This document shows positions 47,821 to 61,680 of a DNA stretch of 64,000 nucleotides, piece by piece (position 1 is the stretch's first letter; each line of letters opens with the position of its first letter). This stretch comes from Lachnospiraceae bacterium. GTDB taxonomy: Bacteria; Bacillota; Clostridia; Lachnospirales; Lachnospiraceae. A model generated the notes under the pieces. It was not told the DNA's origin. It saw only the letters and a list, made by a program, of their open reading frames with translations, and did no database searches. The position numbers and the translations under genes were made by a program. The DNA lies in contig JAILRH010000255.1 in the NCBI GenBank assembly GCA_024698345.1, positions 18,148 through 82,147 of the forward strand, given 5' to 3'.

Positions 47821-48333
47821 ATGAGCAGAGTAAAAATAATAAAGAAAAAAACTGATTATTCACTCGAGTATGTCGTTGGTGAAGAGTATGAGGTTGATAC
47901 TACGTGGTATGGTGGAGTGAATATAATAGGTAAGAGTGGAATTCCGGTTCCTGTTGAAAAGGATGAATATATTTTAATAGAAGAAACAGGTGCTTCGGAA
48001 AATGTTGAAAACTCAGATTTTTCAGACAAAACTCATTATTCAGATGGCGAAAATAAAACTGCTTTTATGAATAATGATAGAGATATAACCGTTGGCGATA
48101 TAGTGAGACATTTTAAAAGGGAATGGATTAAAGAAGACAATTCTGAGTATTATTACAAGGTATTGGCATTTGCCAGCCATACCGAAACAGGAGAGAGACT
48201 TGTAATTTATCAGGGGATGTATCCGCCTTTTAAGGTGTGCGCAAGACCGTATGACATGTTTATGTCTGAAGTTGACAGAGAAAAATATCCGGATGTAAAA
48301 CAAAAATATAGATTTGAAAAAGTAGAACTATAG
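47821..48333 (+). CDS. DUF1653-like domain protein
   Basis: '[61 protein letters not shown]'. Confidence 0.8.
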
Positions 48334-48450
48334 ATTTTGGAAAGTAGAACTATAGATTTTGGAAAGTAGAACTATAGATTTGAGAATATTATAACTATAG
48401 ATTAGGAAAAGAAAACGATAGATTAGGAAGAGAAGAACTATAGATTTGGG
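48319..48450 (+). repeat. Degenerating 22-bp tandem repeat (about 6 units) that includes the 3' end and stop codon of the preceding CDS
   Basis: AAAGTAGAACTATAGATTTTGG at 48319 and 48341 identical; further diverged units at 48363, 48385, 48407, 48428. Confidence 0.9.
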
Positions 48451-54340: not shown

Positions 54341-55582
54341 ATGAAACCAAATACAGAACAGTTAAAACTGATTGATGCGCAGATTAAGCGCCTCATTAAG
54401 ACAGACAGTTATTACGGAAAAATGTACAGAGAACTTGGAATTGACAAGGTTGAGTCTTTTGAAGATTTTAAAAAGATTCCATTTTCAAGTAAGGAGGATT
54501 TGAGAAATGCTTATCCACTTGGAATTCAGGCAGTTCCTGATGAAGAAGTTGTAAGAATTCATTCATCGTCAGGTACAACAGGAAAACCGGTTATTATTCC
54601 TTACACAAAGAAGGATGTTGAAGACTGGGCTACAATGTTTGCAAGATGCTATGAGATGGCAGGTATTACAAAGAATGACAGAATTCATATTACTCCGGGA
54701 TATGGTCTTTGGACCGCCGGTATCGGATTTCAGGCAGGTTGTGAAAAATTAGGTGCTATGGCAATTCCTATGGGACCGGGTAATACAGAGAAACAGTTAC
54801 AGATGATGCAGGATTTAGGTTCCACTGTATTGACAGCAACATCTTCTTATGCACTTTTACTTGCTGAGGAAATCAATAAGAGAGGACTCAAGGACAAGAT
54901 TAAACTTAAAAAAGGTGTAATCGGTTCAGAGAGATGGAGTGAGAAAAAACGTGAGTATATCGCAAATGAACTTGGAATCGAACTTTATGATATCTATGGA
55001 CTGACAGAAATTTATGGACCTGGAATTGGCGTAAATTGTGATAAGAATGAAGGAATTCATTATTGGGATGATTATCTTTACATTGAAATAATTGATCCTA
55101 AGACAGGAGAGCAGGTTGAAGACGGTGAAGAGGGAGAAATTGTTATCACAACAATGGTAAAAGAAGGCGCACCTCTCATCAGATTCAGAACACATGATAT
55201 TTCAAGAATTATTCCTAAGAAATGTTCATGTGGAAGTGAATTTCCAATGCTTGATATTATCAAGGGAAGAAGTGACGACATGTTCAAAGTACACGGCGTA
55301 AACATGTTCCCAAGTCAGGTAGAAGAACTTCTTCAGAAATTTGACGGCGTACTCAGCGAGTACAGCATCAATATTGCTCATGATGAGACAAAGAACAAAG
55401 ACGTAATGCTTCTTACAGTAGAGGCAGAAGGTAGAGTAGATTTCGAACAGACAGCAAAAGAAATCAGAGATATGTTCAAAGCGATAATCGGAGTTACTCC
55501 AAAGGTAACAGTAGTGCCAATCAATACACTTCCAAGAAGTGAGAAGAAGACACAGAGAGTAATCGATCACAGAGAACAGTAG
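54341..55582 (+). CDS. paaK: Phenylacetate-CoA ligase (copy 2)
   Basis: 'RIHSSSGTTGKPVIIPYTKKDV', 'DIYGLTEIYGPGIGVNCDKNEGIHYWDDYL', 'IKGRSDDMFKVHGVNMFPSQVEELL'. Confidence 0.95.
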   Translation: MKPNTEQLKLIDAQIKRLIKTDSYYGKMYRELGIDKVESFEDFKKIPFSSKEDLRNAYPLGIQAVPDEEVVRIHSSSGTTGKPVIIPYTKKDVEDWATMFARCYEMAGITKNDRIHITPGYGLWTAGIGFQAGCEKLGAMAIPMGPGNTEKQLQMMQDLGSTVLTATSSYALLLAEEINKRGLKDKIKLKKGVIGSERWSEKKREYIANELGIELYDIYGLTEIYGPGIGVNCDKNEGIHYWDDYLYIEIIDPKTGEQVEDGEEGEIVITTMVKEGAPLIRFRTHDISRIIPKKCSCGSEFPMLDIIKGRSDDMFKVHGVNMFPSQVEELLQKFDGVLSEYSINIAHDETKNKDVMLLTVEAEGRVDFEQTAKEIRDMFKAIIGVTPKVTVVPINTLPRSEKKTQRVIDHREQ

Positions 55583-55609
55583 AGAAAAGCATGATATTAT
55601 AGAAAAGTC

Positions 55610-55737
55610 AGGTAATCTGGAATAATTAAGGTAATCCAGGTAACTTGGAACTATTAAGATGATCCAGGTAATCTGGAATAATATATATTTGAGATTATCT
55701 AGAATAATATTGAAAATCGAGATATTCTAGAATAATG
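55610..55737 (+). repeat. Degenerate 28-bp tandem repeat, ~5 units
   Basis: AGGTAATCTGGAATAATTAAGGTAATCC-like units at 55610, 55638, 55666, 55694, 55720. Confidence 0.85.
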
Positions 55738-55779
55738 GTAAAGGAAAAAGTTCAATAACGAACAATAAAAATAAGATGT

Positions 55780-56200
55780 GTACCTCCTAGATACGAAAAA
55801 TGGTGTTTGGGAGGTACATTTTTGTGCGAAAAGAAGAGTTATGTTAACAATAATTAAAGGGTATTTACCTACTAAACGTTAAAAACTTGATTTAGTAGGT
55901 CATAATCATGTGAAAAAGGAATGTGTTATGTTAACAAATTAAAAAAATATATACCGCCCAAACTCTAAAAAAGCCATATGAGTGGTAGTGATTGTTTGAA
56001 AAAATGAAAAAGAGTTAACATAATTGAAAAATGAAATACCGCCCAAACACTAAAAAGGCCATATGAGCGGTAGTGATTGTTTGAAAAAATGAAAAAGAGT
56101 TAACATAATTGAAAAATGAAATACCGCCCGAACACTAAAAAGGCCATATGAGCGGTAGTAATTGTTTTAAAAGATAAAAATAGTCAACATAATTAAAAAA
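55780..56200 (+). repeat. Tandem array of five ~85-bp hairpin units
   Basis: Stem-loops starting at ~55780, 55867, 55952, 56037, 56122 (spacing ~85 bp); each followed by an A-rich linker containing a GTTAACA-type motif. Confidence 0.9.
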
Positions 56201-56212
56201 CAGAATAACTCC

Positions 56213-56284
56213 ATTTATTAAAGTATATGCTTTTTTATTTATTAAAGTATATTCTTTTTTGTTTACTAATGTATTTGCTTATTT
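56213..56284 (+). repeat. 24-bp tandem repeat, 3 units
   Basis: ATTTATTAAAGTATATGCTTTTTT, ATTTATTAAAGTATATTCTTTTTT, GTTTACTAATGTATTTGCTTATTT. Confidence 0.85.
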
Positions 56285-56305
56285 ATTCCAACTACAATGT
56301 AAAAA

Positions 56306-56668
56306 TTACTCTGATGGACATGATATTTCAACCATTTTCTCGATCATATGATGGAGTAAATCGACAGGTTTTGTTTCGGCAGCCTTGTAATATACTTCCT
56401 TACCCTCTCTGCGGCTTACAATCAAACCACTCGATTTTAGGGATTTTAAATGATGCGATACAGCAGGACTACTCATATCTACCATTGCTGAAATATTTGT
56501 TACACATTCTTCGCAGTGGCATAACAACCAGAAAATTCTGATTCGGCTGCTGTCGCTCAACTGTTTGAATATTGTTGAAATTGTTTCGAAGTCCTCAACC
56601 TTTGGCATATGATCAAAATTGTGCTCCATATGTTGTCCGTGATTGTGAGGTAAATGTTTATCTGACAT
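56306..56668 (-). CDS. ArsR/SmtB-family metal-responsive repressor
   Basis: 'LKQLSDSSRIRIFWLLCHCEECVTNISAMVDMSSPAVSHHLKSLKSSGLIVSRREGKEVYYKA'; His-rich N-terminus; Cys in alpha-3 position. Confidence 0.9.
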   Translation of the reverse strand: MSDKHLPHNHGQHMEHNFDHMPKVEDFETISTIFKQLSDSSRIRIFWLLCHCEECVTNISAMVDMSSPAVSHHLKSLKSSGLIVSRREGKEVYYKAAETKPVDLLHHMIEKMVEISCPSE

Positions 56669-56769
56669 AAATTATCTCCTTGATTATTATTAAGTATAAA
56701 TTTAATTCTCATGGAGTGTATATCAGATGTGAGATTGGACTCCCACTGATACTATCTTGCTGCTCACCA

Positions 56770-56848
56770 CTTAGCTCATACGCGCTTGAAGCGGGAGCTG
56801 TATCACATCTTAGCTCATACGCGCTTGAAGCGGGAGTTGTATCACATC
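56770..56848. repeat. 39-bp direct repeat x2 with internal inverted repeats
   Basis: CTTAGCTCATACGCGCTTGAAGCGGGAG(C/T)TGTATCACAT at 56770 and 56809. Confidence 0.9.
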
Positions 56849-57073
56849 TTATATAACTAACTCATTATGATAGTATAACACAGTTAATTATAATTAATCT
56901 ATAAAAAAAGTGAATGAGAAAAATAGTATTTTTGATTGAATGAAATATCCAAATGTAATAAAATATAGAGTAAGAGATATTGAGATTGGATTTATTAAGA
57001 TATAGTTAAAAATGGATGTCTTTAAATGTAAAAAAAGATAATGTCAAATAACTAAAAAATGGAGGTATTGTTT

Positions 57074-59094: not shown

Positions 59095-59180
59095 GACAAA
59101 AATCTGCTTAGAAAATATCGACAAAAATCTGCTTAGAAAATATCGACAAAAATCTGTTTAGAAAATATCGATAAAAATCT
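59095..59180 (+). repeat. 25-bp tandem repeat, 3.5 units
   Basis: GACAAAAATCTGCTTAGAAAATATC at 59095, 59120, 59145 (and partial at 59170). Confidence 0.92.
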
Positions 59181-61564: not shown

Positions 61565-61580
61565 TCAAAAGAGCAGAGAA

Positions 61581-61680
61581 ATAATTCATGAAGCAATGAA
61601 CAGAAAAATGCTTGCATAGTAATTATTCATGGAACAATGAACAGAAAAATGCTTGCATAATAATTATTCATGGAGCAATT
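61581..61680 (+). repeat. 41-bp tandem repeat, ~2.5 units, directly after the ATPase stop
   Basis: TTCATGGAACAATGAACAGAAAAATGCTTGCATA(A/G)TAATTA units at 61585, 61626, 61667. Confidence 0.9.

Follow-up and report, generated by a model that had tools for sequence, protein, structure and literature searches.

A tandem hairpin array in a convergent gene gap of a rumen-type Lachnospiraceae bacterium: a probable terminator-type member of a genus-specific family of modular intergenic repeats

The 64,000-nt stretch of DNA analyzed here (the window; contig C152 of genome G000, a rumen-type Lachnospiraceae) carries five successive hairpins in a convergent 3' gap. These are probably a hairpin repeat of terminator type that has expanded in tandem and is part of a genus-specific family of modular intergenic repeats. 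The array evolves fast and is not a product of chance; the strongest evidence on the latter point is that the corresponding gap of two other species holds it too. Most likely it is part of a genus-restricted, BOX-like family, and it resembles already known kinds of intergenic repeat more than a new molecular machine. In pneumococci and enterobacteria, small hairpin repeats between genes are well documented; a literature search returned no published description of such repeats in rumen Lachnospiraceae.

The hairpin blocks are 36 nt long each, with starts at 55781, 55866, 55952, 56037 and 56122 and a start-to-start spacing of 85, 86, 85 and 85 nt (Table 1), which confirms the number and positions of the hairpins reported in a first-pass annotation of the window. 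The conserved linker motif described there for every unit is also present, in two forms: GTTATGTTAACA 3' of units 1-2, and a AGTTAACATAA-like form 3' of units 3-5, the version of unit 5 being TAGTCAACATAA (the last unit of the corresponding array in sister genome G002 has a similar end, TAGTTAACATAATT). For the change of linker between units 2 and 3, an inversion of the motif and a 5-nt gain or loss (GTTA[TGTTA]ACA) fit equally well. Hairpin identity among units 3-5 ranges from 89 to 97% (unit 4 vs. unit 3, 92%; unit 5 vs. unit 4, 97%); these units are recent near-copies, and thus only about three independent stem versions exist in the window. Tandem Repeats Finder reports an 85-bp unit in 3.2 copies with 91% matches at 55930-56200, missing units 1-2 because they are too diverged. 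Folding of the plus strand gives -26.8 kcal/mol for unit 1 (z about -9.5) and -11.1 kcal/mol for unit 2 (z -4.2), and is weak for units 3-5 (-6.0 to -8.3 kcal/mol, z -1.0 to -1.8), whose stems are short, with about 6 bp plus broken inner pairs.

Table 1. Coordinates of the hairpin array and of its two flanking genes in the window.
Feature	Positions	Strand	Basis
Upstream gene, AMP-binding enzyme of phenylacetate-CoA ligase type	54341..55582	+	Pfam AMP-binding, AMP-binding_C_2
Unit 1, 17-bp hairpin followed by TTTTGTG	55778..55819	+	Terminator scan match, -26.8 kcal/mol
Linker motif 3' of unit 1, GTTATGTTAACAA	55838..55850	+	Direct repeat
Unit 2 hairpin, ACCTACTAAA/TTTAGTAGGT	55866..55901	+	Fold; covariance model R1 match, 51.1 bits
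Linker motif 3' of unit 2, GTTATGTTAACAA	55925..55937	+	Direct repeat
Unit 3 hairpin, T-tailed and more stable on the minus strand	55952..55987	-	-10.1 kcal/mol, tail TATATTTT
Linker motif 3' of unit 3, GAGTTAACATAATT	56012..56025	+	Sequence
Unit 4, near-copy of unit 3, terminator-like	56037..56072	-	-14.3 kcal/mol, tail TTTCATTT
Linker motif 3' of unit 4, GAGTTAACATAATT	56097..56110	+	Sequence
Unit 5, near-copy of unit 4	56122..56157	-	-11.9 kcal/mol, tail TTTCATTT
Linker motif 3' of unit 5, TAGTCAACATAATT, right end of array	56181..56194	+	Sequence
ArsR-family regulator, convergent neighbor	56306..56668	-	Pfam HTH_5, 3.3e-11

Several known repeat types and readings were discarded. The array is not a CRISPR, as the first-pass annotation had already concluded: there is no constant repeat with unique spacers, and the whole 85-nt units diverge together throughout. 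An integron attC array is ruled out by the 85-nt spacing and the absence of cassette genes. A Shine-Dalgarno-plus-start reading of the 3' arm (GGAGGTACATNNNNATG) is seen in some C220 units and is absent from units 3-5 of the window. Searches of phage and plasmid collections gave no match, and an Rfam scan gave none in the array and a single chance-level match (E 4.5) outside it. The genome is also rich in other short intergenic tandem arrays. Directly 5' of the array, positions 55609-55736 hold five 18-nt copies at 26-28-nt spacing (CAGGTAATCTGGAATAAT) with several short palindromes (e.g., TCCAGGTAATCTGGA), a tandem repeat not seen in the corresponding gap of the sister species; immediately to the right, an AT-rich 24-bp tandem repeat in three copies covers 56213-56287. 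Further intergenic tandem repeats of the window lie at 48307-48449, 59095-59180 and 61573-61679 (periods of 22, 25 and 41 bp), and a repeat-like element with an internal 39-bp duplication (CTTAGCTCATACGCGCTTGAAGCGGGAGCTGTATCACAT) at 56719-56855; a relative with the same TATATCAGATGT.. start adjoins an array of sister genome G001 (L169).

The junction occupied by the array separates a CoA-ligase-type gene on the plus strand from a convergent gene for an ArsR-family regulator on the minus strand. The former is the last gene of an indolepyruvate-oxidoreductase-like cluster (Pfam POR_N/TPP/Fer4 and POR in the genes upstream), and its nearest named relative is found in Lachnospiraceae bacterium SIG293, with 99% identity in the best segment. 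No binding protein or transposase, for which the first-pass annotation had advised looking nearby, adjoins the array. The genus was sampled through three genomes (G000, G001 and G002), all of them fragmented into 30-263 contigs, some of which end within an array. The search for the same array in related genomes, suggested in that annotation too, was successful: the orthologous gap holds four hairpins each in G002 (L033) and in G001 (L034, which equals L037 of SIG293). Their spacing is 84-86 nt in all three genomes, with strongly diverged sequence; the first units are orthologous in the three species (81-89% hairpin identity), and the later units are far more diverged. At that place, distant relatives of the CoA-ligase gene (L038, L039) have no array and a single ordinary terminator.

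A terminator scan of the 1.8-kb region returned 3 sites against 0.4 expected, unit 1 being the strongest by far. About 195 nt 3' of the CoA-ligase stop codon, it forms 17 pairs with the tail TTTTGTGCGA, that is, the GC-containing stem followed directly by a T-run, 3' of a gene, by which intrinsic terminators are recognized. The corresponding first units of the sister species fold at -30.0 and -23.0 kcal/mol and have T-rich tails; the 8 nt after the first unit contain 5, 4 and 5 T in the three species. These sequence features support the prediction of unit 1 as a textbook intrinsic terminator of the upstream CoA-ligase gene. None of units 2-5 is followed by a good T-tract in the plus direction. 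Read on the minus strand, units 3-5 fold at -10 to -14 kcal/mol and 6 of the 8 tail nucleotides are T; from stem and T-rich tail they look like predicted terminators for the ArsR gene, unit 5 being the first hairpin reached by transcription leaving it. The last unit of G001, when read from the ArsR side, forms a strong palindrome (-22 kcal/mol on either strand). The array had initially been described as too regular for random terminators, a claim which finds no support: unit 1 is itself terminator-like, and single terminators of TACC..GGTA type are found at gene ends in the genus. One terminator would suffice, and hence the multiplicity of units may be neutral or selfish.

Stem pairing was evaluated on the 13 units of the orthologous gap in the three species, over a 15-pair stem. 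Paired cells reach 79%, against 35-42% with slid partners. Cells changed on both sides with the pair kept number 17 vs. 8.6 +/- 2.4 in shuffles, and the covariation score is 0.262 vs. 0.142 shuffled, neither value being reached in any of 500 shuffles, which ignore relatedness; an enlarged set of 26 units drawn from more loci gives a result of the same kind. Pairing drops when 3' arms are exchanged between units (p <= 0.0014, or p <= 0.003 with units 3-5 collapsed to one), in a control that likewise ignores relatedness. The compensatory stem evolution proposed in the first-pass annotation is therefore upheld as regards the excess of double changes and the covariation, but it is weakened by the near-identity of units 3-5 and by imperfect pairing: stem positions 10 and 12-15 are frequently open, and two units (G1a2 and G2a3) barely pair at all (z -0.3 and -0.1).

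Template switching during replication is documented both to generate paired hairpins and to keep them paired (PMC8794818), and E. coli undergoes template-switch mutations at quasipalindromes (PMC7202029). Such a process can yield the same covariation signal as seen here, and pairing may be retained through selection, through template-switch correction, or both. Among the dispersed units of G001, the arms are exactly complementary at stem positions 5-8 in only 32 of 125, and mixed arms occur, TTCC standing with TACT in 13 units and with TACC in 20, which suggests arm turnover and relaxed constraint in the dispersed copies. From the earlier proposal of a functional RNA or DNA structure, the maintenance of pairing stands, but a dedicated functional RNA is not needed, because template switching can keep hairpins paired (PMC8794818) and exact complementarity is restricted to that minority of units.

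Dispersed relatives were sought with a covariance model (R1) at a cut-off of E <= 1, the E-values being rough and the training set having included part of what the model later finds. This genome search, also foreseen in the first-pass annotation, recovered homologues within the genus: 27 matches in G000, 136 in G001 and 23 in G002, a palindrome being counted on both strands in some cases. Among the 299 genomes of the family sampled, only this genus shows multi-copy matches, and no comparable array occurs outside it in that sample; other genomes have one or at most two weak matches each, the best of which resembles a single terminator. The dispersed elements of G001 are bounded by fixed modules on the left and right, between which hairpin units of 64-65 nt occur in varying number; core lengths are 298, 363 and 428 nt, i.e., steps of one 65-nt unit. 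Those of G000 have common ends and one to several units. An element of 86-nt period with its own fixed ends is present in G000 and G002 between what we take to be coaX and purA, and in G000 also near a putative hsp20 (names read off the flanking sequences), and a one-unit form of it lies at another shared site. At coaX-purA, G001 has a single TACCTACCGG..CAGGTA terminator, and in G000 and G002 a terminator there precedes an array. At one array site of G001, G000 and G002 have no array, the gap there differing in gene content.

With crude ORF calling, the 38 arrays or single units of the three genomes are located between convergent genes in 12 cases, codirectional genes in 23 and divergent genes in only 2, with 1 lying within a short ORF; all gaps of >100 bp at the same loci were 13 convergent, 69 codirectional and 21 divergent. 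Modular ends were not seen for the window array itself. Long terminal inverted repeats were not found: the G000-type ends match no better than shuffles (14 vs. a mean of 13.8), as do those of the window array, and the G001-type ends show only a short GAAAC/GTTTC-type match (p about 0.04). Judged with a model partly trained on the 86-bp elements, the window array appears homologous to both the 65-bp and the 86-bp dispersed elements. Two other repeats were observed around such elements. In G001 (L161-L171, L204-L208), palindromes like GTTTCATAAAGTATACTTTATGAAAC flank many hairpin elements and may mark an insertion hotspot or be another dispersed repeat. In G000 (L010, 1220-1310; L011, 170-255), a repeat bounded by TGTCAAGCAT / ATGCTTGACA and enclosing a GCCCC..GGGGC hairpin adjoins two arrays and looks like a small inverted-repeat element.

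Under the reading we favor, unit 1 would end transcription of the upstream CoA-ligase gene, and units 3-5 would serve on the minus strand as back-to-back terminators of the ArsR gene, as deduced from stem and T-rich tail. The extra units would derive from tandem duplication at the 85-nt period and from turnover within the array, since units 3-5 are near-identical and the units differ between sister species. As a whole, the array would probably prevent, in both directions, transcriptional read-through and antisense collision. Elsewhere in the genus, units of this type would have given rise to a dispersed element whose left and right modules are fixed and which includes from zero to several extra middle units; the terminator role would account for part of the retained stem pairing, and template-switch correction of near-palindromes probably for another part.

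The alternative that the array is a modular repeat of neutral or selfish nature, in which only unit 1 has a role, is one we consider unlikely on balance. Slippage and unequal recombination would multiply the units, some mobilizer would disperse the elements, and template switching, which is documented (PMC8794818, PMC7202029), would convert one arm to match the other. This alternative is favored by the dispersed copies of G001 and of G000/G002, whose ends are fixed and whose unit number varies, by the mixed arms, which look like intermediates, and by the scarcity of exact complementarity; however, an array retained at one gene gap in three species, with a conserved terminator as its gene-proximal unit, argues against it. 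The near absence of elements between divergent genes fits either view. A rather doubtful, more far-reaching scenario is that a host gene terminator became a tandem array, acquired end modules and turned into a dispersed, self-multiplying repeat, with stems rewritten by template switching and yet paired. If true, the origin of BOX-like repeats from a host terminator would be directly traceable.

Neither a dedicated small RNA nor a binding-site array is supported. That a structured noncoding RNA or small-RNA array is transcribed from the gap and acts through its hairpins is very unlikely: the compensatory-type changes and a promoter-like TTGAAA-17-CATAAT in units 3 and 4 would agree with it, but promoter-like sites in the region exceed shuffles by only about 2 sd (15 vs. 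8.9 +/- 2.8), Rfam offers nothing save the chance-level match outside the array, no loop or sequence block is strongly conserved beyond the A-run and the stem feet, and several related units fold poorly. An array made up of protein-binding sites (palindromic GTTATGTTAAC / GTTAACATAA motifs) or of cruciform DNA sites is most improbable; the motif occurs about once per unit at the orthologous gap in all three species, but it is missing from the 65-bp dispersed units, and GAGTTATGTTAAC with <=1 mismatch, rejected as a genome-wide binding site, is not commoner than its reversed-pattern control (5 vs. 15 in G000, 6 vs. 7 in G001 and 7 vs. 13 in G002). A REP/REPIN-type element mobilized by a RAYT (Y1_Tnp) transposase, to which the many intergenic hairpin copies and the Y1_Tnp matches in G000 and G002 might point, is scarcely credible and was rejected because the copy-richest genome, G001 (136 matches vs. 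27 and 23), has no Y1_Tnp match, with roughly 3% of that genome missing.

Among known systems, REP, BIME and REPIN sequences are palindromic intergenic repeats at gene 3' ends, sometimes clustered, with proposed roles in termination or mRNA stability (PMC3116915, PMC3733652); their nature and location are shared by the family described here, whereas the RAYT is lacking in G001. Bidirectional intrinsic terminators likewise place a hairpin with a T-tract on either strand between converging genes, but as one hairpin instead of five, and most units here have poor T-tracts on one strand. SPRITE, a pneumococcal repeat resembling a Rho-independent terminator, with an 18-bp duplex and a long T-rich tract (PMC3049150), is similar as a terminator-like hairpin repeated in 3' gaps of genes with convergent enrichment, and differs in that tandem arrays are found here and that, on the plus strand, unit 1 alone has retained a good T-tract. 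BOX elements of Streptococcus pneumoniae and S. suis have the structure boxA - boxB n - boxC, are intergenic, over-represented between convergent genes and limited to a narrow lineage, and carry terminal inverted repeats resembling those of an IS (PMC3049150). The dispersed relatives share with them the fixed end modules flanking a variable number of tandem stem-loop middle modules, the narrow-lineage restriction, the intergenic location, the excess between convergent genes and an effect on neighbors thought to act via RNA structure. They differ from BOX in the unit period, 85 or 65 bp here, and in the absence of clear terminal inverted repeats; furthermore, the window array is without recognizable end modules. 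Here an old array at one orthologous gap can be compared with single terminators at the ends of equivalent genes and with modular copies recently dispersed in sister species, a combination offering a compact test case for the origin of BOX-like repeats and for compensatory stem changes by selection versus template switching.
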